Shown: positions 1 through 23,210 of the stretch, in pieces | Layout: each line of letters starts with the position of its first letter | Numbering within the stretch: the stretch's first letter is position 1 | From: a virus | Length of the DNA stretch: 23,210 bases | Direction: 5' to 3' (one strand) | IMG/VR virus record: IMGVR_UViG_3300001847_000533 | Span: 1-23,210 of that record | Translations under genes and position numbers: made by a program | Notes under the pieces: generated by a model | The model's database searches: none | Told to the model about the DNA's origin: nothing | The model's input: only the letters and a program-made list of their open reading frames with translations

Positions 1-94
1 AGGTTCTCAAGGTTCTCAAGGACCATCTGTTTCTGGAAACTCAAACATTACTGCTTATATTGGCACAGGTACAAGAAATGGTCCAGTATCATAA
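1..94 (+). CDS. C-terminal end of a tail-fibre-like protein (partial)
   Basis: Only the last 30 codons and the TAA stop are present, reading in frame from base 2. The visible peptide begins with collagen-like Gly-X-Y triplets (GSQGSQGPS) and ends in GTRNGPVS. Gly-X-Y stretches are common in phage tail-fibre and adhesin trimers. The next gene follows nine bases later behind a GAGGA ribosome site, so this is probably the first visible member of the left operon. Identity as a tail fibre is inferred from the triplets and from T4-like context; the rest of the gene is outside the window. Confidence 0.5.
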   Translation, partial: GSQGSQGPSVSGNSNITAYIGTGTRNGPVS

Positions 95-103
95 GAGGAA
101 AAA

Positions 104-517
104 ATGAATATTCAATACAAAATAGTAGAAGTTTGGCCTAATGATCATGCAATAGTTGTTCGTTATTATACTGATAATTTACCAGAAACAGAATTATTAT
201 CTTCTCCAGAATTGAGAGAAGATGGAACACCTGTTAGATGTAGAACAGATGTTTCTATTACTCTTCCTATTCCAGAACCATCAGAAGAAGAATTGAATAA
301 ACTTATTATGCTCAATTGCCCATTATCTTTTTTTGAAATACAAAAGAAAATAAAAGATCCTAATATTAATACGTCTATGTCACTAAGTTCATCTCTTTTA
401 AACAAAGAAAAAGTGGCAACAGAAGCAGAGATCATAGAATTGTTGAAACCACCAATGCCATCTGAAAACTCACCACTTACTGATGCAGAAATTGAAGAAC
501 TAATTCAAAAACTTTAA
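104..517 (+). CDS. Small conserved-type protein beside the tail fibre, function unknown
   Basis: A 137-residue soluble protein with no signal peptide or membrane segment. The N-terminal half looks like a beta-rich fold (VVRYYTDN, then a DGTPVRCRTD stretch). The C-terminal half is acidic and helical, with Pro-rich linkers (PIPEPSEEE, PPMPSENSP). Similar small proteins lie next to tail-fibre genes in marine T4-like phages, so a fibre accessory or chaperone role is possible; this rests on memory and position, not on a diagnostic motif. The ATG has a good GAGGA site. Its TAA overlaps the next ATG (TAATG), implying translational coupling with the first PP-loop gene. Confidence 0.7.
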   Translation: MNIQYKIVEVWPNDHAIVVRYYTDNLPETELLSSPELREDGTPVRCRTDVSITLPIPEPSEEELNKLIMLNCPLSFFEIQKKIKDPNINTSMSLSSSLLNKEKVATEAEIIELLKPPMPSENSPLTDAEIEELIQKL

Positions 518-1557
518 TGACAATATTTTGGTATGATAATGATAAAAACGTCTATAGAACACATATAGATGCTTTAAAATCTGGAAAACAATGTTACATA
601 TATTACAATGATACATTATATGGTTCTGTTGATTGGAAGACAGAACCATCTTTTTCATTGAAAGAATTATACAAATTAAGAGCACAAGAAATAAGAGATT
701 CCTATGAAAGAGTTATCTTGTGTTTATCTGGCGGAATAGATTCTCGGAATGTTCTGGAATCATTTTATTATAACAATATACACATAGATGAAATAATATC
801 TGTAGGTGCATTTTCACAAGATGAATTTTTTGGATCAGATGAAAACAATAATCGAGAAATATATGTAAATGTGAAACAATTTTTGAATGAATTGACTTTA
901 CCAAATACAAAATTCACTATCATAGATTATACAGAAATGTTTAGTGATCCAAAAAGATTTGATACGATCAAAAATTTAGAAGAATATTGGTACACTGATT
1001 TAGGTTGTTGGAAAAGTTTACATAATTTATATTGGAAAGACTTGAAAAAATACTTAATAAAAGATAACAAGAAAACATGTTATGTAATGGGGACTGGAAA
1101 AACAAGAATAGATTTTACACAAAACGACCCTTTTGTTTTTTTCGATGAAACTGATTTAACTGACTATGGTTTCAATTATTCTGATGAAAACTTACATAGA
1201 GAAAATTTCTATTGGGGTAATACAAAAGTTTCTATAGAAATAATTAAAAAACAAGCATATACAATGTTGAATGCTTATAAGATCATGAATAATACATCTT
1301 TTTTTCTAAAATACATGAAAATATATGATAGAATAATTTATGATATAAAAACCCCTTTATATATGCCAACGAAGAAATCCAATACATTTCTTTTAAGTAT
1401 ACGAGATGAATTTATAAAAAGGAAAATGAACTCTGAAATATTTAAATATTATGCTGAAGGATTGAAAAAAATGTCATGTGATATTGGTTTGAAACACAAA
1501 ACACACATATCTAGAAAATATTATCTAAGTCATGACGAAAATACTAATCTTTTCTGA
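517..1557 (+). CDS. PP-loop ATPase-fold protein A (SGGIDS), 346 aa
   Basis: The PP-loop signature SGGIDS sits at residues 71-76 after a hydrophobic strand (VILCL). This is the ATP-pyrophosphate-binding loop of the N-type ATP pyrophosphatase/AANH superfamily (asparagine synthetase, QueC, TilS/TtcA, NAD synthase), which adenylates a substrate before amide, nitrile or thio transfer. Lead-in residues EPSFSLKELYKLRAQEIR and the following NNIHIDEI closely match the protein at 3867-5006, so the two are paralogues. A second shared element near residue 190 is GTGKTRIDF here and GCDKPRFLI there. No glutaminase domain and no Cys-based thiolation motif is visible, so the product chemistry cannot be named. 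The start is fixed by TAATG overlap with the upstream gene; the end overlaps the radical SAM gene by 26 bases. Confidence 0.85.
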   Translation: MTIFWYDNDKNVYRTHIDALKSGKQCYIYYNDTLYGSVDWKTEPSFSLKELYKLRAQEIRDSYERVILCLSGGIDSRNVLESFYYNNIHIDEIISVGAFSQDEFFGSDENNNREIYVNVKQFLNELTLPNTKFTIIDYTEMFSDPKRFDTIKNLEEYWYTDLGCWKSLHNLYWKDLKKYLIKDNKKTCYVMGTGKTRIDFTQNDPFVFFDETDLTDYGFNYSDENLHRENFYWGNTKVSIEIIKKQAYTMLNAYKIMNNTSFFLKYMKIYDRIIYDIKTPLYMPTKKSNTFLLSIRDEFIKRKMNSEIFKYYAEGLKKMSCDIGLKHKTHISRKYYLSHDENTNLF

Positions 1558-3058
1558 TTGTTTCATCTATAATGAAAAGCAATATATGAAAACATCATCA
1601 TCAATGAGATTGTCTTATTCATTGAGAAAATATGGTAATAATGTAAAACAGATTTTCCAATTCATGTCTTTTACCAAAGATGAAATTAAATACATGATAA
1701 CATCATACAAACCAGACATTATCTGTATCAGTACATCTTTTTTATCAAACACAAATCATAGACATAATATACTGAAACAAGGAAGTACTATAGGATATCA
1801 CTGGGGAAAATATGAAAATTTTGAAAAGATATTAAGTATATGTTATTATGGAAAATTGTTTGGTAGTAAAGTAATTGTAGGTGGTTGGGAAGTAACAATT
1901 GATACTTTGAAAACCAATGATAAGAAAAAATATGCATATCAATATCTAAAGAATTATGTTGATTTGTTTGTGATTGGTGATGGTTGTGACATCATACAAA
2001 AAATTGTTATTAATGATAAAATAAACACTTTTACGATAAACGGATTAACAGCAACAGCAGGAACAACTTTAGATTTTGAAGATAAAGCATCATCTGGTTC
2101 AAAAGATGATATAATACTTGATGATGAGGCATTGATAACAGAATTATCAAGTGGTTGTATATTCAGCTGTTCTTTTTGTAATTATTCTATGTTAGGTAAA
2201 AAGAAAAATGAGTATGTCAGATCATATGATAGTTTGAAAACAGAAATTGTGAATAACCACCATAATTTTAACACAAGATTTTATCTAATGACAGATAATA
2301 TCATGAATGATTATGATGAGAAAATGAAAATGCTTATTCGTATCAAACAAGAAACTGGCATTAATTTACGATGGACTGGATATGCTAGACTTGACAATAT
2401 AAAGGATGAAAAGGATGCTCTGTTAATTAAAGAATCAGGTGCTGCATCATTGACATTTGGTATAGAATCAATGCAAAAAACTGTAGGGCCTTATATAGGT
2501 AAAATGACGGATAAGACTAGATTATTAAAAAAACTAAACTTGTGTCGTGATGTTTTTGGAGATGATGTGTTGATAACAGCATTGTTCATTAATGGATTAC
2601 CAACAGAAACATTAGAATCTTGTGACGAAACTTTTTATTTTTTAAATTCTGATGAAGGCAGACATCTGATAGATTATTATTCATTTTCAACATTATACAT
2701 ATACAAAGATAATGATACGAAAAATGATATAAATAAGAAAAGGAATAACCCATTCAGAGATTATGAAATGATAAACAATTCAGATTATTGGAAAAGTCCT
2801 TGGGGAGAGAAAAAAGATTTTATCAACAAAACTCTTTTCTATGATAGTAATAAAAAATGTAAAAGTGATTATTTTGGAGGATTTAAATTACCAGCAGCAC
2901 ATAATGCTGGAATAAAAATAGAAGATGCCATTAAGATGAAAAGAAAGTTGCAAAAAACCCCAGACAATAATCTTGAAAAAGATATTCATGAACAATTAAA
3001 AACAAAAACAGAACAGAAAATAGCTGAGTATAAGGCCCTAGTTTTATCGAATGTTTAG
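1532..3058 (+). CDS. B12-binding-type radical SAM enzyme, 508 aa
   Basis: Residues 209-216 read CIFSCSFC, a CX3CX2C motif with C209, C213 and C216 as predicted ligands of a [4Fe-4S] cluster. A later GIES motif (FGIESMQ) is typical of the SAM-binding core of radical SAM enzymes. The first 160 residues resemble a cobalamin-binding Rossmann domain: KILIFSD strand, KPDIICIST, VIVGGWE, then VDLFVIGDG. The classic DxHxxG lower-ligand motif is not seen, so B12 binding in a base-off state or loss of B12 is possible. Such enzymes do radical methylation, methylthiolation or ring chemistry. The C-terminal third is charged and unassigned. The ATG lies 26 bases inside the preceding gene, and the Rossmann strand begins at once, which supports this start. 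It is co-transcribed with three PP-loop proteins. Confidence 0.9.
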   Translation: MTKILIFSDCFIYNEKQYMKTSSSMRLSYSLRKYGNNVKQIFQFMSFTKDEIKYMITSYKPDIICISTSFLSNTNHRHNILKQGSTIGYHWGKYENFEKILSICYYGKLFGSKVIVGGWEVTIDTLKTNDKKKYAYQYLKNYVDLFVIGDGCDIIQKIVINDKINTFTINGLTATAGTTLDFEDKASSGSKDDIILDDEALITELSSGCIFSCSFCNYSMLGKKKNEYVRSYDSLKTEIVNNHHNFNTRFYLMTDNIMNDYDEKMKMLIRIKQETGINLRWTGYARLDNIKDEKDALLIKESGAASLTFGIESMQKTVGPYIGKMTDKTRLLKKLNLCRDVFGDDVLITALFINGLPTETLESCDETFYFLNSDEGRHLIDYYSFSTLYIYKDNDTKNDINKKRNNPFRDYEMINNSDYWKSPWGEKKDFINKTLFYDSNKKCKSDYFGGFKLPAAHNAGIKIEDAIKMKRKLQKTPDNNLEKDIHEQLKTKTEQKIAEYKALVLSNV

Positions 3059-3066
3059 AGGAAAAA

Positions 3067-3870
3067 ATGATAATAGAAAACAATTGGTTAGTAACAAACA
3101 TTAAATCTAGATTACAAGATTCCTTTCTTGAATTTGATGTTAGTATTACAAACTACCCTTATAGTGTTGTTTCTTTTGAAACAGCATGTAACAATGTAGC
3201 AAAAAAGATTCAAAATCTAAATAAACCAATTTACATTGGATATAGTGGTGGTGCAGATTCAGAATTTGTTGTCAGACTATTTAATACTTTAAATATACCT
3301 TTTACCTCTATTACTGTCAAAGGTCCTGGAAATTTCTATGAGTATGAATATGCTTCATATTTATACAAAGAACTTCCAGAAATAAACAAGCATATCATAG
3401 AAATATCAGAAAGAGACTATGTTACTAATTATGTATATGTAACAAAGAAAATGAATTTTTCTGCACCAAATTTTATACCTTCTTATGTAGCAGCAAAATA
3501 TGCCAAATCACAAAATGGAATATACATCACAGGAGATAATGTTCTAGACGTTGGTTATGCAGAAAACAATCTTATGTTGGTCGGTTTTTGTGAATGGGAT
3601 TATTATTATGATGCTTTGATTGATGAAAATTTAGCAATTCCGTTTTTCCAATATGATTTACCTATAGTACGTTCTGTTGTCGATAAAATGAATATATCAG
3701 AATTAAGTTTCTTCAAAAACACTTTATATCAAACTAGTTTTAGACCCAAGTTATATGGTCATTATAAAAATGAAAAAATAAGAAATCTAATTAATAGAAT
3801 GGTACAAGAAACAGTTCGTAAGAATCCTCAAAAAGCATATAGTATACCAAATTTTCTCAGCATGATATGA
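3067..3870 (+). CDS. PP-loop ATPase-fold protein B (SGGADS), 267 aa
   Basis: The PP-loop SGGADS lies at residues 60-65 after the strand IYIGY. The downstream region has the expected alternating strands (FTSITVKGPG; KHIIEIS) and GIYITGDNVLDVGY, reminiscent of the second nucleotide-side loop of asparagine-synthetase-like folds. It is shorter than the two other PP-loop proteins here and does not align with them well outside the loop, so it is a distinct branch and not a recent duplicate. A strong GAGGA site precedes the ATG. The last four bases (ATGA) overlap the start of the next gene, so the two are probably translated in coupled fashion and may form a complex. Substrate unknown. Confidence 0.85.
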   Translation: MIIENNWLVTNIKSRLQDSFLEFDVSITNYPYSVVSFETACNNVAKKIQNLNKPIYIGYSGGADSEFVVRLFNTLNIPFTSITVKGPGNFYEYEYASYLYKELPEINKHIIEISERDYVTNYVYVTKKMNFSAPNFIPSYVAAKYAKSQNGIYITGDNVLDVGYAENNLMLVGFCEWDYYYDALIDENLAIPFFQYDLPIVRSVVDKMNISELSFFKNTLYQTSFRPKLYGHYKNEKIRNLINRMVQETVRKNPQKAYSIPNFLSMI

Positions 3871-5006
3871 TTCAACATATACGTGAATATGGTTGTTATT
3901 ATTATGATAATATGCCATATATAAATAAACTTGATGTTTTGGATGCTGCACTCCTTAAAAAAGACTATGATCCACAAATCAAATTTTGGTTTCATGATGA
4001 TGTTCTTAGTTATATTAATTGGACGATTGAGCCAGAATTGAGTTTAGATAAACTGTATAAAATTCGTGCTGAACAACTAAGACAAGAATTTGAATATTTG
4101 ATCCTAATGTATTCTGGAGGTTCTGATTCAAATCAAATTCTTCATACATTTGTAAAAAATAATATATATATTGATGAAATCCGTTCATATTGGCCCGAAA
4201 AAATTGCTAAAAAAATTAAACCAACAACCAATCCAAAAGATCCTAAAGGATTGCTTAGTGAATATCATTCAGTTATTCCTGAAATTCAAAAATTTGCCAA
4301 AATTAGTCCAAACACTAAAATATCAATATTAGATTATTCTGATGATATAAAAACAATAGTGAATGATAAGTTTATTTCAGATTGCGGCAAAAAACTTACA
4401 ATAGTCAATGGAGCAATATTTCAACAAGCAAAACAAAAAATAGAAGTAGAATATTTAAATAAAGACGTTGAAAATTTAAAAGGAAAGAAAGTTGGTGTTA
4501 TATATGGATGTGATAAACCTAGATTTTTAATAAACAATAATAGACTATATTATTACATTTCAGATATATCTAGAACATCATCATCTTTTTATCAGAAAGA
4601 AAGTTCAAACTTCACTCCTAAGATGTTTTTTTTAACTCGTGATTTACCAGATATTATGATAAAACAAAGTCATGTATTTTTGAAATATGTAAAATTGAAC
4701 CCATCTATATTACAAGTAGTAAAACAGGCACCTCACAAAATACCAGAAAGCACATTAATAAAAAGATTAATGTATCCTGATTATAATCCAAATATATATC
4801 AAAAAACAGGAAAACCATCAGGAGGCGATATAATTCTAAAAGATTGTCTTGAATATCAAAATATTTTTCAATTTTTAGATGAGAAAAATAGATTTATCGA
4901 TAATACTTATAGAAAAATAACTAATACAAAAAAACTTAATGATGGAACATATAATTCACCTCTTAGTGTAACAATATCTAAACCATATTATATTGGTTCC
5001 GTGTAA
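3867..5006 (+). CDS. PP-loop ATPase-fold protein C (SGGSDS), 379 aa, paralogue of A
   Basis: SGGSDS at residues 83-88 follows YLILMY. Around it, INWTIEPELSLDKLYKIRAE and KNNIYIDEI align with the protein at 517-1557, as do GCDKPRFLI and HVFLKYVKL further on (FFLKYMKI there). A and C are therefore a divergent pair from an old duplication. C has extra residues after the loop (Lys/Pro-rich segment TTNPKDPKGL) and a C-terminal Gly/Ser patch (KPSGGD). It overlaps gene B by ATGA and is the last + strand gene before a convergent junction. It is probably an ATP-dependent activating enzyme working with the radical SAM protein; the reaction is not deducible from sequence. Confidence 0.85.
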   Translation: MIQHIREYGCYYYDNMPYINKLDVLDAALLKKDYDPQIKFWFHDDVLSYINWTIEPELSLDKLYKIRAEQLRQEFEYLILMYSGGSDSNQILHTFVKNNIYIDEIRSYWPEKIAKKIKPTTNPKDPKGLLSEYHSVIPEIQKFAKISPNTKISILDYSDDIKTIVNDKFISDCGKKLTIVNGAIFQQAKQKIEVEYLNKDVENLKGKKVGVIYGCDKPRFLINNNRLYYYISDISRTSSSFYQKESSNFTPKMFFLTRDLPDIMIKQSHVFLKYVKLNPSILQVVKQAPHKIPESTLIKRLMYPDYNPNIYQKTGKPSGGDIILKDCLEYQNIFQFLDEKNRFIDNTYRKITNTKKLNDGTYNSPLSVTISKPYYIGSV

Positions 5007-5011
5007 TCAAC

Positions 5012-5036
5012 AAAAGCATATGTAATACATACTTTT
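5012..5036. terminator. Weak hairpin at the convergent junction
   Basis: Between two converging genes, the arms AAAAG/CTTTT and TATGT/ACATA pair around an AAT loop, with a two-base CA bulge on the left arm. T-rich bases follow in the + direction. It overlaps the stop codon of the - strand gene. It could act as a bidirectional terminator, but the stem is AT-rich and imperfect, so this is a tentative call. Confidence 0.35.
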
Positions 5037-5976
5037 ATTTGAAATTATTCAATATGTGTTTAGGTGTTTTTTTCATATCATCAATTATTTTTTCTGCTTC
5101 TGACCAAGATATATAATTAACAGCAATATTTTTTGATAATGCTTCTTCTATAAAATCATTATCATTCACTGCTAAATGAAACATTTTTCTTAATTCGTTT
5201 TGTGCAGTTTTTGGAATATTTGGTGGTGCAACATAAGGTCTTAATAAAAAAGACATTTGTTCAAATGCCAAAATTTCTTCTTTATTATTTGATGTGGATA
5301 ACTCAGCAATAGTTGGAACATTAGGCAAAGAACTATTTCTGGTAGAAAAATTTCCAAATTGCAATAAAATATGATACTTATTATCGAGTATCCAATTAGG
5401 TCTTGTTGCTCTCAATCCATTTAAGTTAGCAATTAAAGCATCAATTTCTTTTCTTTCAAAAGACAGTCTAACATCATTAACACTCTTATATCCTTGTATA
5501 TCTTTAATATTCCAATTTAATACTCTTTGTATGAAAGAAGAAGGTGATGCTATATCTATATTATTACTTCCAATTATGATTTCACCATCATATTTTTTAT
5601 GTGATAATAAAATTACAGCATCTTTTCTACCATCATCTACAGATCCCAACCATACAAAATTAGATGGATCATAATCGATATTTTGACCACCAATTATTCC
5701 TATCAATGGAATGTTTTTCATAAAAACACCGATAGTAGATCCATCTTTAGATGCAATATTATACAAATAATTAGCAGCAATAATACTACCAGCACCAGGA
5801 ATTATTTTATATTCTATCTTCTTGATATTGTTATTATGTTTTATAAAATATTTTGACAGAATTCTTGCTGTCATAGAATGAGTATCTTCTCCAGATGTAT
5901 TCATGACAATTGTTAAAGTATTTGCTTTAACTGTCACAACAGACATTATTAAAAATAAGAAAAACAATCTAATCAT
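5035..5976 (-). CDS. TctC/Bug-family periplasmic solute-binding protein
   Basis: The protein begins with a short basic n-region and hydrophobic core (MIRLFFLFLIMSVVTV) ending in VKA before Asn19, a plausible signal-peptidase I site, so the mature protein should be periplasmic. The body fits the substrate-binding subunit of tripartite tricarboxylate transporters: PGAGSIIAANYLY resembles the family ligand loop PGAGG..A, followed by DGSTIG, NFVWLGSV, and a late LPNVPTIAEL segment that matches the family's usual P..PT..E motif. The length of 313 residues is about normal, so it looks intact. No TctA/TctB membrane genes are present, so it would have to use host permease parts or act alone as a binding protein. 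It is last in the - strand operon, with GAGGA overlapping the upstream stop. Confidence 0.85.
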   Translation of the reverse strand: MIRLFFLFLIMSVVTVKANTLTIVMNTSGEDTHSMTARILSKYFIKHNNNIKKIEYKIIPGAGSIIAANYLYNIASKDGSTIGVFMKNIPLIGIIGGQNIDYDPSNFVWLGSVDDGRKDAVILLSHKKYDGEIIIGSNNIDIASPSSFIQRVLNWNIKDIQGYKSVNDVRLSFERKEIDALIANLNGLRATRPNWILDNKYHILLQFGNFSTRNSSLPNVPTIAELSTSNNKEEILAFEQMSFLLRPYVAPPNIPKTAQNELRKMFHLAVNDNDFIEEALSKNIAVNYISWSEAEKIIDDMKKTPKHILNNFK

Positions 5977-5983
5977 ATTATCC

Positions 5984-6595
5984 TCAACTAAATTTTGGAC
6001 CTAAACACCACACAACCAATGACCTTCTTTTACCTTTGGTAACTGGTGTTACTCTATGGCACATGAATGAAGGAAACAACAATGATCTTCCTTTTCTAGC
6101 AGGTAGAATTGCAGGTGTGTTTTGATTTCCAGTATTCAATTGAAACTCACCACCTTCAAAATCATCATTCAATAATAGGGTCAATGAAAGTTTTCTTATG
6201 TGATGTTGATCATATGATCCCATGCATGTATCCATATGCCAATCATAGTTACCATTCTTTTCTGCGTCATAAGTTGTATATTGAAATGAATCATAACCAT
6301 TCAAATTGAAATTATAAAACATTTCATTAGCACTTTGTAAAATAAAATTTACTTTATCAAATATCCAAGCAGTTTCTGGATTTCTATTATGAAAACCTAT
6401 ATTAGATATTCTAACCTTTTCAATTTCTTCTTTTGATTTCTCACCAAAAGTTGTTCCGTGAATAAGTTCTTTTGATTCACAATATTCTATCACTTTATTC
6501 AATTCATCATTACTGAATACATCATCCCAATAACACCATGGTTCAAATACGGTTGCTCTACGAATAGGATCATTGTAAATTGTTGTATATTTCAT
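5984..6595 (-). CDS. 2OG-Fe(II) oxygenase, prolyl-hydroxylase-like (PKHD type)
   Basis: The double-stranded beta-helix motifs are all visible: H120-x-D122 in YDWHMD, distal H180 in FMCHRVTPV, and the 2-oxoglutarate-binding Arg at R190 or R191 (GKRRSLVVW). These fit an Fe(II)/2-oxoglutarate dioxygenase of the P4Hc/PiuC type that hydroxylates a protein or small-molecule substrate. LTLLLNDDFEGGEF is the typical strand pair between the two iron-ligand motifs. At 203 residues it is near full family length. The start ATG overlaps the upstream stop as ATGA, and the N-terminus matches a broken paralogue at 8126-8290. 2OG oxygenases are frequent in marine T4-like phages, where their substrates are mostly unknown. 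Confidence 0.9.
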   Translation of the reverse strand: MKYTTIYNDPIRRATVFEPWCYWDDVFSNDELNKVIEYCESKELIHGTTFGEKSKEEIEKVRISNIGFHNRNPETAWIFDKVNFILQSANEMFYNFNLNGYDSFQYTTYDAEKNGNYDWHMDTCMGSYDQHHIRKLSLTLLLNDDFEGGEFQLNTGNQNTPAILPARKGRSLLFPSFMCHRVTPVTKGKRRSLVVWCLGPKFS

Positions 6596-7281
6596 TTCTC
6601 AAACATTCTCCAATTTTTTATAGGTTGTAATCCTAAGTGTTTTGCTATTTTTTCTTTATAAGTTAATATAATATCACCAGCAATAGAAATTCTTCTATTC
6701 TCAACATCGTTAATACCTTCTATTTTATTTGTAGACAATTCATCATGACCAATAGTATCGTGATTTAAAGTTGCTGGAAATACCATTAATTGACCATCTA
6801 TTGGTTTAAATTGCCATGTGTAAGAATTGAAAATGTCCCAAACATTATTTTCGTTGTTTATTTTACAAAAAGAAGTGAAAGGTTCATGTCTGAAAACATA
6901 ATTATAGAATCGGATTGAGTTATATACATTTTCTGGAACATGAACATAATAAACAAACGCAATATGAGCATCTGCATGATTATGATTTGGATTAGATTGT
7001 CCTCCAGTGATATTCAACCAAGATTTGACAATGTTGATATCAAATAATTCTGGATTTACATTGTAAGTTTTGATAAACTCTTTGATACAAGATACAACAA
7101 ATGTGTAAAGATATTTGTATCTATCATCATGGTGAATTGTTACATGACCGGTACTTTCATCTGAAACTCCTCTATCATTCAGATGATCAAAAACACTGTT
7201 GAAGAAAATATTTTTAAATTGTTTATGTTCATCATAATGAAATTCACTAACCAATACTGGAAATAATGCATGATTATTCAT
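6592..7281 (-). CDS. Putative 2OG-Fe(II) oxygenase, TIGR02466-like
   Basis: The pattern fits the small phage/bacterial 2OG-Fe(II) oxygenase group often labelled TIGR02466. It starts with a short LFPVLVSEF lead and has SWLNITGGQSNPNHNH (H100 and H102 as candidate iron ligands), then AFVYYVHVP. The strand QLMVFPATLNHDT holds distal H174, and NRRISIAGDI holds the candidate 2OG-binding Arg196/197. In family members the lead is usually followed by SGVYYL; here it is AFVYYV. The length of 229 residues is normal. It overlaps both neighbours by four bases (ATGA), so it is translationally coupled between the Rieske protein and the second oxygenase. Substrate unknown. Confidence 0.85.
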   Translation of the reverse strand: MNNHALFPVLVSEFHYDEHKQFKNIFFNSVFDHLNDRGVSDESTGHVTIHHDDRYKYLYTFVVSCIKEFIKTYNVNPELFDINIVKSWLNITGGQSNPNHNHADAHIAFVYYVHVPENVYNSIRFYNYVFRHEPFTSFCKINNENNVWDIFNSYTWQFKPIDGQLMVFPATLNHDTIGHDELSTNKIEGINDVENRRISIAGDIILTYKEKIAKHLGLQPIKNWRMFEK

Positions 7282-8114
7282 TTACAAATCCTATTTTCTT
7301 TAACCCATTTTCCAAAAATTACAGTTTGATCTTCCAACCTATTAATACTCTTTTTATATGGAATAAATCTTGTTTTTTGTTGCTCTGCTACAAAAACATC
7401 TTCACGAAACACATCCTCAATTTTATTGAAAATTTCTCTTTTTTCATTTGATATGATAGGGTCGTAGTATAGTTGTGTCATCCAACTATATCCTGTTTCT
7501 TTATTGATATCAAATGGAAAGGTAGAATTAATTGACAGACATCCTTTTGACCATTCTATGAATATGAATGGAAATACATATACCCACCATCCATCAGGAT
7601 GTTCCTGGTATATCCAACCATCACCATTTTCCAACTTAACATCATTAGGATCAACTTGTGTTGCTAACCAAGGATGTACTCCATTTTTCAATATATGAAG
7701 CAAATCTGCTTCAATTTCCATCAACCATAACCAATTGCCATTACTTTTACCTGTATAACAATGACTATACTTTAAATTAGTTTCTTTATAAACATCATCA
7801 ACCCATTTATGATCAGGTTCTATAAAATTTTGAAAAACAATCCCCGATTTACCAAGATTATGTCTATGGCAATTTAATTTATACAAACTATTGTTTGCAC
7901 TGCCATCATTATTAAATGTGAAACCATGCAATTTACACTTGATGTTTTTTTCATGATTTCCCACCTCTCCGATAGGATAAAATCTATGAGGGCATAATCT
8001 ATTAAATATCTTTATTTCATCTTCCACTTTGCTCATAATATATTCTTGTCCTATAAAAGGACCGTCTTGTAATGCAGATACATGTCCAATCACTTTTGGT
8101 AGTTTTTTAAACAT
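7278..8114 (-). CDS. Rieske-type [2Fe-2S] non-heme iron oxygenase-like protein
   Basis: The N-terminal Rieske domain has C41-x-H43 (CPHRFYPIGE) and C60-x2-H63 (CKLHGF), the four ligands of a Rieske [2Fe-2S] cluster. The C-terminal part contains D137-x2-H140 and H147 (ADLLHILKNGVHP), compatible with the mononuclear iron site of ring-hydroxylating and demethylating oxygenases, although the His spacing is wider than usual. At 278 residues it is short for an oxygenase alpha subunit. A reductase partner is absent and would have to come from the host. I place the start at the ATG with AAGGA seven bases upstream; the open frame extends five codons further to a GTG that lies within the remnant gene's stop region. 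It is in an operon with two 2OG-Fe(II) oxygenases. Confidence 0.85.
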   Translation of the reverse strand: MFKKLPKVIGHVSALQDGPFIGQEYIMSKVEDEIKIFNRLCPHRFYPIGEVGNHEKNIKCKLHGFTFNNDGSANNSLYKLNCHRHNLGKSGIVFQNFIEPDHKWVDDVYKETNLKYSHCYTGKSNGNWLWLMEIEADLLHILKNGVHPWLATQVDPNDVKLENGDGWIYQEHPDGWWVYVFPFIFIEWSKGCLSINSTFPFDINKETGYSWMTQLYYDPIISNEKREIFNKIEDVFREDVFVAEQQKTRFIPYKKSINRLEDQTVIFGKWVKENRICK

Positions 8115-8125
8115 AATATTTCCTT

Positions 8126-8290
8126 TCACACAAAACCATAGTACATTTCATTAATGCTTTGCAATATAAAATTTAGTTTATCAAATATCCACCCTATATC
8201 AGGTGTTTTTTCATGAAACCCAATCTTAGAGATTTTTATTTTCTCAGTGCTTCTTCTGATAGGGTTATTATAGATAGCTGTGTATCTCAT
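8126..8290 (-). pseudogene. Remnant of a second prolyl-hydroxylase-like 2OG-Fe(II) oxygenase (54 codons)
   Basis: Reading the - strand from the ATG at 8290 gives a 54-residue peptide beginning MRYTAIYNNPIRRST and ending NEMYYGFV. Residues 1-15 align with residues 1-15 of the intact oxygenase at 5984-6595 (MKYTTIYNDPIRRAT). Residues 16-54 align with its residues 59-97 (KIGFHEKTP versus NIGFHNRNP; FILQSINEM versus FILQSANEM). About 43 codons are missing in frame and the whole catalytic half (HxD, distal His, Arg) is gone, so it cannot be an oxygenase. It keeps a GGAG ribosome site and lies just after the divergent late promoter, so it is probably still translated as a leader peptide ahead of the Rieske gene. 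Divergence from the intact copy implies a separate paralogue and not a recent tandem copy. Confidence 0.8.
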
Positions 8291-8358: not shown

Positions 8359-9099
8359 ATGGCTATACCTACTACAAGAGATGGTTTTAAACAGCTTTGC
8401 TTAAGACAGCTGGGTGCACCGGTAATTGATATCAACGTATCTGAAGAGCAAGTAGATGACTGTGTTGATCTTGCTCTACGTTATTGGCAAGATTACCATA
8501 TGGATGGTACTGATAAGCAGTACTACAAATATAAGATTACTTCTCAAGACATCATTAACAAGTATATAACAATACCAGAAAATATCATTGGTGTTATTAA
8601 TCTCTTTCCTATTGGTGATGCTCTCAACACTGCTAATATGTTCTCTATTCGATATCAGATCGCATTGAATGATCTTTATACATTAACAAACGTATCTCTA
8701 GTACCATATTATATGGCGTTAACCCATGTCAGATTAATTGAAGAAATTCTTGTTGGTAAGCAGATGCTTCGATATAATAGACATATGAATAGATGTTATA
8801 TCGATATGGATTGGACAAAACTACAGACAGATTACTATTTAATTCTAGAATGCTATGGTGTTGTTGATCCAGATACATACCCTGATGTGTGGAAAGACTG
8901 GTGGATAACTCGTTACACAACTGCACTAATTAAGAAGCAGTGGGGAAATAATCTTAAAAAGTTCACAGGTATGATGCTACCAGGTGGTGTACAATTTAGC
9001 GGCCAGCAAATATATGATGAAGCAGTTCAAGAAATACAAGATCTAGAAGCTAATATGATAAACAGCTTTAGTCTTCCCGTGGCCGACCTCATAGGTTGA
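8359..9099 (+). CDS. gp13: Neck protein gp13 (head completion)
   Basis: This 246-residue protein fits T4 gp13, which with gp14 forms the neck collar closing the filled head and receiving the tail. Recognisable features are the N-terminal TRDGFKQLCLRQLGAPVIDINV with the following VDDCVDLALRYWQDYH helix, and a C-terminal LILECYGVVDPD..PDVWKDWW segment ending in an acidic helix. Order (first of 13-14-15-16-17-18) and size support the call. The divergent late promoter lies about 30 bases upstream. Its end is followed at once by a homing endonuclease gene, so the T4 adjacency of 13 and 14 is interrupted by five inserted genes. Confidence 0.9.
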   Translation: MAIPTTRDGFKQLCLRQLGAPVIDINVSEEQVDDCVDLALRYWQDYHMDGTDKQYYKYKITSQDIINKYITIPENIIGVINLFPIGDALNTANMFSIRYQIALNDLYTLTNVSLVPYYMALTHVRLIEEILVGKQMLRYNRHMNRCYIDMDWTKLQTDYYLILECYGVVDPDTYPDVWKDWWITRYTTALIKKQWGNNLKKFTGMMLPGGVQFSGQQIYDEAVQEIQDLEANMINSFSLPVADLIG

Positions 9100-9110
9100 A
9101 ACAAATAAAT

Positions 9111-9791
9111 ATGACTCAAGTTTATTGGATACATCTAGATGAACATAACGATATTAATTCTCAAGGGTATATTGGAGTGTCCAAAAATGCATTGAATAGA
9201 TTCAATGTTCATCTAAAGCATCTTAAAAACAATATTCATGAAAATATTCATTTGTCCCGTGCATATGATAAATATAAAAATATTTTATTAACAATTATAT
9301 TTGAAGGTTCGCTAGAAGAATGTTATAATTTAGAACATGAATTAAGACCTTATAAAGATATAGGGTGGAATATAGCTCAAGGGGGAGGTGCACCCCCTAT
9401 TAATTATGGCAATGAATGGAATAAAGGAAGAGTTTTTTCTGAAGAAATAATAAAAAAACGAGCTGATAAACATCGGGAAAGTATTAAAGAAAAATACGGT
9501 ATAATTAATGTTTCACAGTTATCTCATGTTAGATTAAAAAAATCTATTAAAATGAAAAAAAGGTATTTTTCAGATGATCATAAAAATAGAATAAGCTTGA
9601 ACAGAAAAGGTAAAGGTACAGGCTCAAATAATGCTATGGCAAGTGAGGAAAATAGAAAAAAAGTTTCATTATCAAAAATAGGTAGAGTAGCCTTATACAA
9701 AGATGGTAAAAGAAAAATGGCTAAACCTGGTACAACATTATTTGAAGATTTGCAACAACAAGGGTATTTATTAAAACATGCTAACGTTTAA
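9111..9791 (+). CDS. GIY-YIG homing endonuclease with NUMOD3-like repeats
   Basis: The GIY-YIG core is VYWIHL (residues 4-9) and GYIGVS (19-24), with Arg30 and Glu75 (NLEHELRPY) as candidate catalytic residues and a GGG turn (NIAQGGGAPP). The C-terminal half is basic and has NUMOD3-like DNA-binding motifs, such as GKGTGSNNAMASEENR and KVSLSKIGR. Free-standing endonucleases of this kind (Seg type in T4) cut recipient phage DNA and spread themselves by repair. The frame is open back to a TTG at 9096 inside the gp13 stop, but the ATG at 9111 is the likelier start. The 3' end overlaps the next gene by 14 bases. It is inserted between gp13 and a row of small packaged-protein candidates. Confidence 0.88.
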   Translation: MTQVYWIHLDEHNDINSQGYIGVSKNALNRFNVHLKHLKNNIHENIHLSRAYDKYKNILLTIIFEGSLEECYNLEHELRPYKDIGWNIAQGGGAPPINYGNEWNKGRVFSEEIIKKRADKHRESIKEKYGIINVSQLSHVRLKKSIKMKKRYFSDDHKNRISLNRKGKGTGSNNAMASEENRKKVSLSKIGRVALYKDGKRKMAKPGTTLFEDLQQQGYLLKHANV

Positions 9792-14683: not shown

Positions 14684-16321
14684 ATGGATTTTAAAGGTTA
14701 TAACGGTAACCCTAACCTTAAAAAGGTTAATACCAAGATTGAATGGACTCCTGATCTAGTCAAAGAATATATTAAATGTAAAGAAGATATAATATATTTT
14801 GTTGAAACTTACATGAAAATTGTTCATGTTGATAAGGGATTAATCAATTTTAAATTATACAGTTATCAAAGACAAATGCTTAAAGATATGCAAGAACATA
14901 GATTTAATGCATTTTGTCTTTCGAGACAGTCTGGTAAATCAATAACCGTTAGTGCATTTATTTTGTGGTTTATTATATTTAATAATGAAAAGGAAGTTGG
15001 TATTCTAGCTAACAAAGGTGATACAGCAAGAGAAATTCTTGGTAGGATTCAACTAGCGTATCAACACTTACCTAAATGGTTGACTCACGGGATTACAATT
15101 TGGAATAAAGGATCTTTTGAGTTAGAAAATAAATCTAAAGTAATAGCAGCTGCAACCTCATCTGATAACGTTCGCGGTCATACTTTTGCACTCGTATATT
15201 TGGATGAGGTTGCTTTCGTAGAAAATTATAATGAATTCTTTGCATCAGTTTTTCCTACTATATCTTCCGGACAAACTACTAAAATAATTATGACAAGTAC
15301 TCCTAATGGTTTAAACCATTTCTACCAAACTATAACAATGGGTTTAAATAAACAAAATAATTTTAATGTTCGAGTAGTTCCGTGGCATCAAGTCCCAGGT
15401 CGAGATGAAAATTGGAAAGAACAAACGCTAAAAGCATTAAACCATGATCAAGCTAAATTTGCTCAAGAATTTAATGTAGAATTTTTAGGTTCGTCAGGTA
15501 CACTTATTGCAGGCTGGAAATTACAAGAACTTGTACCTCAGATAGCTATTAATGAAAAGCAAGGTATCGTTCAGTATGAGAAACCTAACAAAGGTAGAAC
15601 ATATTGTGGTGTAGCTGACGTTTCTAGAGGTAAAGGTCTTGACTACTCTGCATTACAAATAATTGATGTAACAGAGATGCCATACAAGCAAGTGTGTGTA
15701 TTTCGTGATAATATGACTACACCAGGTGATTTTGCTGAGATTATTAATAGACTAGGAAGACAGTATAATAGCTGTCCTATTCTTGTAGAAGTAAATGATA
15801 TCGGGCAACAAACAGCAGAAACATTATATTTTGATTATGAATATGAATCAATGCTATTTACTGAATCAGCTGGTAAAGCTGGTAAGCGTATTACAACAGG
15901 AGCATCTAAACCAGGATCAGTAGATAGAGGTATTAGAACAACAAAGACAGTAAAAAATGTAGGTTGCTCAATGTTAAAGTTACTTATTGAGCAGAACCAG
16001 CTAATTATCAATGACTATAACACAATACATGAACTATCTACATTCTCTAAGAAAAATAATACATATGAAGCAGAACCAGGTAATAACGATGACTTGGTAA
16101 TGTGTTTAGTATTGTTTGCATGGTTAACAGAACAAAAATATTTTAAAGACTTGACAGATATTAATACATTGTTAATGCTCAAAGAAAAAAATGAAGAGCA
16201 GCTATATAATGATCTACTTCCTTTTGGATTTATTGATGATGGTATAGGTCAAGATCCTACACCTGATTCTAACGGTGATAAATGGTATGATGTTGATCAA
16301 AACTCCTTTTTCTATAAATAA
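14684..16321 (+). CDS. gp17: Terminase large subunit gp17 (packaging ATPase and nuclease)
   Basis: This is the DNA-packaging motor. Walker A is SRQSGKS at residues 80-86, Walker B with the catalytic Glu is VYLDE at 171-175, and the coupling motif is TSTPNG at 204-209. The C-terminal RNase H-like nuclease shows D312 (GVADVSRG), D320 (GLDYSAL), an acidic VEVNDIG strand and a NNDDLVM segment as metal ligands. The length of 545 residues is normal for marine T4-like phages, with no intein or intron. The 34 bases upstream hold no clear late promoter and only a weak purine-rich site, so it probably relies on read-through from the gp13-gp16 operon. Its stop codon overlaps the gp18 promoter. Confidence 0.97.
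   Translation: MDFKGYNGNPNLKKVNTKIEWTPDLVKEYIKCKEDIIYFVETYMKIVHVDKGLINFKLYSYQRQMLKDMQEHRFNAFCLSRQSGKSITVSAFILWFIIFNNEKEVGILANKGDTAREILGRIQLAYQHLPKWLTHGITIWNKGSFELENKSKVIAAATSSDNVRGHTFALVYLDEVAFVENYNEFFASVFPTISSGQTTKIIMTSTPNGLNHFYQTITMGLNKQNNFNVRVVPWHQVPGRDENWKEQTLKALNHDQAKFAQEFNVEFLGSSGTLIAGWKLQELVPQIAINEKQGIVQYEKPNKGRTYCGVADVSRGKGLDYSALQIIDVTEMPYKQVCVFRDNMTTPGDFAEIINRLGRQYNSCPILVEVNDIGQQTAETLYFDYEYESMLFTESAGKAGKRITTGASKPGSVDRGIRTTKTVKNVGCSMLKLLIEQNQLIINDYNTIHELSTFSKKNNTYEAEPGNNDDLVMCLVLFAWLTEQKYFKDLTDINTLLMLKEKNEEQLYNDLLPFGFIDDGIGQDPTPDSNGDKWYDVDQNSFFYK
16313..16320 (+). promoter_or_regulatory. Late promoter TATAAATA for gp18
   Basis: An exact T4 late-promoter octamer lies across the last codons and stop of gp17, 42 bases before the gp18 ATG. 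AAGGAG precedes that ATG. Placement and exact match make it convincing. Confidence 0.75.
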
Positions 16322-22849: not shown

Positions 22850-23210
22850 ATGGTCTCTGGAAGTACTGAAGAAGGTAATTATAGTTGGAAACTTCACCCA
22901 TCAGGTCAAGGTCTTCGTTTAACTCATACTTATGCTGGCCCTAATGCTTTTATTGATTTCCACCCAAATGATCCAGCAATAGAAGTATTAAAAACAATGG
23001 ATAACAAGCCTTCTGATGAAGTAACATCACATCCAGCTTTAAAACGTCATTTTAATAAGCTAAACGTTTATGCGCAGAGCATCGGGCATGTTTCACATGA
23101 ACAAACTCAACTTAAAGGAAAACAAATTATGGAGAAGAAGACTAAAAAGTCAAACAAAGAGGTAATTCATGAAGCAGATGCTGCTTCTGCAGCTGCAACT
23201 CTACAGACTC
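22850..23210 (+). CDS. Probable prohead scaffold region gp22, 5' part (truncated by window edge)
   Basis: The frame is open from the ATG at 22850 (TTGGAG site) to the right edge, 120 codons. In T4 order this is gp22, the main scaffold. The first 93 residues form a compact, mixed domain (NYSWKLHPSGQGLRLTHTYA, then FIDFHPNDPAIEVLKTM). An in-frame ATG at 23129, with AAAGGA ten bases upstream, begins a Lys-rich then Ala-rich stretch (MEKKTKKSNKEVIHEADAAS) that looks more like a scaffold N-terminus and includes an I-H-E cleavage-like site. It may be a fused N-terminal domain, or two products from one frame. Identity rests mainly on position. Confidence 0.6.
   Translation, partial: MVSGSTEEGNYSWKLHPSGQGLRLTHTYAGPNAFIDFHPNDPAIEVLKTMDNKPSDEVTSHPALKRHFNKLNVYAQSIGHVSHEQTQLKGKQIMEKKTKKSNKEVIHEADAASAAATLQT

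Follow-up and report, generated by a model that had tools for sequence, protein, structure and literature searches.

AsnB-like enzymes have been described both in peptide biosynthesis and in modification of the cell surface. In the nitrilobacillins, an AsnB-like enzyme and iron hydroxylases act on one peptide (PMC13060819), and in L. casei the AsnB-like enzyme encoded by asnH alters the cell wall and phage sensitivity (PMC3885529). Among phages, the pelagimyophage host recognition cluster is a fibre-linked island with radical SAM cassettes and glycosyltransferases (PMC7029224). Here we describe a run of four genes, A, B, C and D, that encode three PP-loop proteins (A, C and D) and a radical SAM protein (B). 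They lie in a stretch of 23,210 nucleotides (hereafter the window) that makes up most of a 24,452-base viral record, IMGVR_UViG_3300001847_000533. An earlier reading of the sequence alone knew of no characterized phage or bacterial pathway with this set of genes, and in the portions of the literature covered by our search we too found no such pathway and no published description of the module.

We found that the core of the module is A and C, usually with D, situated by fibre genes in many uncultured T4-like phages. Based on its relatives and predicted folds, we consider it somewhat probable that A, C and D are stand-alone synthetases like AsnB and beta-lactam synthetase (BLS), that they take part in late amide formation accompanied by C-H oxidation, and that the most likely target is in the envelope.

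The described systems resemble the module in part. The nitrilobacillin and asnH cases are precedents for how it might work and are not evidence of membership. Nitrilobacillin-type clusters, which make ribosomally synthesized and post-translationally modified peptides (RiPPs), likewise encode an AsnB-like enzyme with iron-dependent hydroxylases; however, those clusters use MNIO or HExxH enzymes, whereas the phage module has an FA_hydroxylase or a Rieske protein. The pelagimyophage/cyanomyophage host recognition cluster is also a T4-like variable island with fibre genes near neck genes and with radical SAM cassettes (PMC7029224). It extends from VrlC to gp14, and two of its features, the fibre genes and the right border (adaptor and head closure), are seen at the module. 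In contrast, the paper on that cluster does not mention asparagine-type, amidotransferase or tripartite-transporter genes, and we noticed none of its glycosyltransferases in our sample of flanks.

A, C and D resemble asparagine and beta-lactam synthetases

Reading frames for orf1, A, B, C and D are open and lie on the plus strand in the order fibre end, orf1, A, B, C, D, overlapping or separated by gaps of 11 bases or less. A (positions 517-1557) is a protein of 346 amino acids with SGGIDS starting at residue 71. B (1532-3058) has 508 amino acids and a CX3CX2C motif at residues 209-216. C (3067-3870) has 267 amino acids with SGGADS starting at residue 60, and D (3867-5006) has 379 amino acids with SGGSDS starting at residue 83. 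The junctions are TAATG between orf1 and A, a 26-base overlap between A and B, an 8-base gap containing GAGG between B and C, and ATGA between C and D. The tight run of motif-bearing genes behind a fibre gene that the sequence-only reading had reported was thus confirmed.

The SGGxDS motifs are conserved. Searches with A and C found 38 and 78 viral loci, respectively. The five fixed letters of the motif were invariant in the alignments of A (30 sequences) and C (25 sequences), and the motif was kept in 18 of 19 D sequences, the exception being SSGSDS in locus L036. Because the letters are invariant in the first two alignments and nearly so in the third, the motifs in A, C and D are not due to chance. 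No model in Pfam, PHROG or NCBIfam names the A, C or D of the window. Comparison with hhalign indicated that A and D are homologous (E = 1.1e-52 over 291 columns) and that C is more distant from A and D than these are from each other. D is, by this comparison, a paralogue of A, and its PP-loop fold is predicted by homology to A only.

We compared AlphaFold2 models of A and C with known structures using VIA-align 2. The models had a mean pLDDT of 91.3 (A) and 91.8 (C) and a PP-loop (HUP-type) fold, and their best matches were PP-loop proteins. The best match of A was E. coli AsnB (1ct9; Z 11.7, 273 residues aligned, rmsd 5.8), followed by beta-lactam synthetase (Z 11.2) and human ASNS (Z 11.2), with the top matches spanning 266-279 residues. 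PP-loop proteins outside the group of AsnB, BLS, carbapenam synthetase (CarA) and TsnB9 all matched A with Z below 8. The best match of C was human ASNS (Z 14.2, 252 of 267 residues aligned, rmsd 4.2), and AsnB (Z 13.8), CarA (12.8) and BLS (12.7) came next. The PP-loop identity first proposed from the motifs was therefore upheld by motif invariance and by the predicted folds of A and C.

A, C and D lack an N-terminal class II (Ntn) glutaminase domain. The part of AsnB and ASNS that A and C match starts where the glutaminase ends or further on (chain residues ~75-140 onward), and GATase_6, a glutaminase model, had no match in 12 phage records while 14 of 14 control genomes were positive. The proteins share with the AsnB/BLS/CarA family (PF00733) the SGGxDS PP-loop and a predicted fold that takes in A for the most part and C almost entirely, but differ from it in having no Ntn glutaminase, in scoring under the Pfam cut-off and in their length of 267-379 amino acids. 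With two features of the AsnB family missing from their sequences, the glutaminase domain and a PF00733 score above the cut-off, we do not count them as members. The most fitting description is that of stand-alone AsnB/BLS-like synthetase domains, for which the families would predict adenylation or ATP pyrophosphatase activity. There is good support for the enzyme class and for the modular architecture.

Other PP-loop chemistries were considered. The sequence-only reading had allowed for amide, nitrile or sulfur transfer. Amide formation is favoured, because the near-full-length matches are asparagine and beta-lactam synthetases; sulfur transfer of the LarE or TtuA type was rejected for A and C as less favoured, LarE and TtuA matching a smaller part of the models. 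The C profile also matched sequences of NAD synthetase (NadE) and TtuA, and with PADLOC C was weakly similar to DndC while B matched PDC-M51A. A QueC-like 7-deazaguanine pathway was rejected for A, C and D, as the structure matches favour AsnB-type proteins.

Two further kinds of PP-loop protein were seen outside the A, C and D families. A separate QueC-like family (c20), with weak similarity to QatC, lies near the module at L028:3800-4708 and L035:10016-10924, both on the minus strand. A separate phage Asn_synthase-like protein (PF00733, 4.9e-15) is encoded at L120:1498-2307, in the L038 phage record, beside an open reading frame (ORF) that looks DNA-polymerase-like by eye.

The A and C families are viral only among the data searched, and recur in many uncultured T4-like phages. 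The A and C alignments found no relative in 84,980 prokaryote genomes, by scans that rely on short conserved patterns and that distant relatives can escape. A tblastn search of 50,697 phage records with A, B, C-type and D-type proteins gave no match. The nearest predicted viral structures to A are uncharacterized proteins of uncultured Caudovirales phages.

The slot between A and C usually holds an oxygenase gene

We surveyed the neighbourhood of A. The 84 copies found were reduced to 44 by dereplication, and 33 of these had enough flanking sequence. Near A, we found C in 29 of the 33 loci, D in 22, an FA_hydroxylase or Rieske gene in 27 and TctC in 28. In T4-like phages, the module has the fibre genes on one side and the head-tail adaptor gene on the other.

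The gene usually present between A and C encodes an FA_hydroxylase of ~150 amino acids (Pfam FA_hydroxylase, 4.2e-17), a type of protein not present in the window. It resembles the FA_hydroxylase superfamily by its Pfam match; its weakly nearest NCBIfam model is OlsE, an ornithine-lipid hydroxylase (8e-4), from which it differs in its small size, in being phage-encoded and in scoring far under the cut-off. In four loci (L168, L173, L175 and L193) the slot instead holds a Rieske protein; one family model matches both this protein and the Rieske-type oxygenase of the window (7278-8129, minus strand; Pfam Rieske, 9.1e-9). Among 67 dereplicated C loci, an FA_hydroxylase alone was near C in 42, a Rieske protein alone in 8, neither in 17 and both in none (Fisher p = 1.7e-4, with kinship among the loci left in).

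In the window, the slot is occupied by B. B exceeds the Pfam Radical_SAM cut-off (45.9 versus 29.5 bits) and has the CX3CX2C motif, as the sequence-only reading had said. The cobalamin-type N-domain that it had also assigned was weak in Pfam (E = 0.23), and the NCBIfam B12-type model TIGR04072 covers residues 30-398, including the N-terminal part (E = 2.2e-14). B resembles the B12-type enzymes PhpK, rSAM_ladder_B12 and AprD4 (PDB 6fd2) in its core domain and motif but scores far under the cut-offs of its nearest NCBIfam families, PhpK (69 versus 600 bits) and rSAM_ladder_B12. Its wider family is large in viruses, with a relative encoded in 460 candidate stretches.

We found B to be optional, a cassette gene that occupies the A-C slot in the window's lineage and is not part of the core, because it is absent from the closest relatives, differently placed in two loci and unlinked to the module in four phages. 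The closest relatives (L133 and L134; A 67%, C 48%, Rieske 76%, OG1 85% and D only 28% identical) have the order orf1-A-C-D-OG1-OG2-Rieske-gp13, without B and without TctC, and a search of their records (149 kb and 48 kb) found no B-family gene. L027 and L045 keep an intact FA_hydroxylase gene and have a radical SAM gene next to it, between C and D. In four other A-bearing records, a radical SAM gene lies ~43-95 kb from the module, as judged from contig coordinates.

These placements bear on the view that the radical SAM enzyme is the constant partner of three PP-loop proteins in a fixed four-gene pathway, which the earlier description of four genes coupled "around" B implied. The tight coupling within the window fits such a pathway, as do L033/L034 and L135, which also join C/D-type, Rieske and radical SAM genes, and the presence of an SGGxDS ORF in the flanks of 27 of 79 radical SAM loci. 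However, a radical SAM gene was near A in only 2 of the 33 flank-complete loci and is missing or unlinked in the relatives just described, and the usual gene in the position of B is an oxygenase gene. The survey thus largely refuted the fixed set, which we now regard as extremely unlikely. Of the co-occurrence suggested earlier for the four families, the part concerning the PP-loop genes stood and the part concerning B did not.

Islands crowded with B12-type radical SAM genes and C/D-like PP-loop proteins were seen in L066, L108, L112 and L116. They variously carry genes for FA desaturases, TauD, PhyH, AspH-like proteins, Rieske proteins and glycosyltransferases.

The module lies behind fibre genes and may be expressed late

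The window phage is, by its genes, a T4-like myovirus. PHROGs recognized a head-tail adaptor, head closure protein, sheath stabilizer and large terminase, and also tail sheath, tail tube, portal and head maturation protease. Upstream of A, positions 1-92 (plus strand) encode the C-terminal end of a fibre protein, truncated by the window start, that by eye is collagen-like (GSQGSQG...). Between it and A lies orf1 (104-517, plus strand), which encodes a conserved protein of ~137 amino acids from a family (c3) found immediately 5' of A in most loci. From its position only, orf1 is possibly a fibre-assembly helper.

The T4 late promoter sequence, TATAAATA, precedes 19 of 31 fib1 genes, compared with a background of 0.9% per 130 bases. 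For fib7, orf1, A, FA_hydroxylase, C and D, the share of genes preceded by it is 0-6%. In the window, sites at 16313, 18888, 22810 and 22816 are just upstream of the sheath gene (16363), the tube gene (18917) and an ORF at 22850; matches in the whole window were not above chance (8 versus 5.8 expected). Because late promoters are common before the fibre gene and rare before the module genes, these results suggest, without proving, that the module is transcribed late from the fibre promoter.

This position could mean that the enzymes act on the virion itself. AsnB-like enzymes would then amidate or cross-link a fibre or tail protein, in the manner of a RiPP, and the oxygenase or radical SAM enzyme would alter side chains. 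The module is consistently behind fibre genes and orf1, apparently within the late fibre operon; an Amidoligase_2 gene is present in some loci; models of RiPP radical SAM enzymes, ApyD among them, give weak scores with members of the B family; and AsnB-like enzymes amidate or cyclize ribosomal peptides, in one case after hydroxylation by an iron enzyme (PMC13060819). However, no precursor peptide turned up, although short precursor ORFs were not searched for systematically, and the FA_hydroxylase superfamily, to which the usual oxygenase belongs, is known to act on lipids and other hydrophobic substrates. We consider modification of a virion protein unlikely.

The apparent late timing also bears on hypermodification of phage DNA bases. 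Four of the nine records that have either the module or C carry TET/JBP genes, and in three of the four an unlinked B-family radical SAM gene lies 8-10 kb from the TET gene. This explanation is weakened, because the module is apparently in a late operon, when nucleotide modification would be expected early, and because TET/JBP and thymidylate synthase had no match in the 149-kb record of the closest relative. We judge it very improbable. The loci concerned, in related phage records, are L214, L215, G002:69198, G003:118613, G005:51275 and G006:117241.

Neighbouring genes

A block on the minus strand stands between D and the adaptor gene. It encodes a TctC-like solute-binding protein (5035-5976) with a signal peptide by eye, then two conserved 2-oxoglutarate (2OG)-Fe(II) oxygenases, OG1 (5984-6595; Pfam 7.6e-15, PHROG 61) and OG2 (6592-7281; Pfam 7.5e-9, PHROG 81), and the Rieske protein. 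The TctC-like protein is under the Pfam TctC cut-off (E = 0.008); its relatives are ~38-43% identical, and a related TctC family reaches 1.1e-13. The right border of the variable region is the head-tail adaptor gene (8359-9099, plus strand; T4 gp13-like, PHROG 211 'head-tail adaptor Ad2', 5.4e-40). Directly after it, at 9096-9791, is an ORF of 231 amino acids with a TTG start whose product looks by eye like a GIY-YIG-type homing endonuclease and has no PHROG match. No tRNA was found in the window.

The transporter genes raise the possibility of auxiliary metabolism, in which carboxylates imported through TctC and TctA components would feed carbon or nitrogen metabolism. Of 47 D copies with full flanks, 37 adjoin a TctC gene; L034 encodes a TctA protein; and tctA has been noted as an auxiliary gene in SUP05 phages (PMC4164917). 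Yet 5 of the 33 flank-complete A loci have no TctC nearby, and neither A nor C turned up in the pattern-based scans of cellular genomes, in which they differ from typical auxiliary genes, which phages take from their hosts. The chance that the module serves metabolism in this way seems low.

Two other gene associations were noted. In L033, L034 and L031, a gene for the TctA permease subunit (Pfam 4.8e-125 in L034) occurs with TctC, an ATP-grasp protein and PP-loop genes. In L020, L024, L026 and L028, an Amidoligase_2 family protein is encoded immediately after C, with no D in the searched flanks.

A proposed pathway and its target

We propose that A, C and D each bind Mg-ATP and adenylate a carboxylate, and that ammonia or a substrate amine would then attack the adenylate to give an amide or lactam. 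The slot oxygenase, an FA_hydroxylase or in a minority of loci a Rieske protein, would work on the same substrate. B would be an optional tailoring enzyme, probably adding a methyl group or rearranging carbon. A, C and D would be read late, together with the fibre. We infer adenylation, amide or lactam formation, C-H oxidation and optional methylation from the protein families. The substrate would be a lipid or glycan in the host envelope that bears a carboxylate and is altered late in infection, for example to change a receptor. We offer an envelope molecule as the target tentatively, as plausible but somewhat short of probable.

Several results weigh against this proposal. The window proteins A, C and D did not match PF00733 at its curated cut-off (21 bits), and C orthologues, although they did match it weakly (E = 1.5e-4 to 7e-3, 12.8-17.2 bits), stayed below the cut-off. 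Profiles of A and D gave no useful match to sequences of solved structures, and hhalign comparisons of A, C and D with the single E. coli AsnB sequence were too weak to place catalytic residues beyond the PP-loop. The mutual exclusion of the two oxygenases may partly reflect lineage and not function; 17 of the 67 C loci, some of them truncated, have neither oxygenase, and L009/L010 have A without C. TctC and TctA neighbours suit nutrient uptake as well as envelope change. Finally, no glycosyltransferase was noticed in the flanks of T4-like loci, in a scan covering part of the flank genes.

The product might instead be a small natural product, either diffusible or carried by the virion. Genes of the AsnB, ATP-grasp, amidoligase, Rieske, 2OG, FA desaturase and B12-type radical SAM kinds cluster in related viral islands, as this would predict, but no carrier protein, nonribosomal peptide synthetase, polyketide synthase or exporter was found among the scanned genes. 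We think a natural product quite unlikely.

Our preferred reading remains that of AsnB/BLS-like synthetases acting late with an oxygenase. It can be extended to a phage-only pathway in T4-like phages, in which AsnB-related amide or lactam synthetases combine with interchangeable C-H tailoring enzymes to furnish the virion or the host surface with a new amide or lactam product late in infection; this extension is doubtful. The exchangeable oxygenase slot makes the function testable, since two unrelated oxygenases should serve the same step. A product attached to the virion or to the host envelope would add a new chemical layer to phage-host recognition, and one that is released would make the module a virus-borne biosynthetic pathway.

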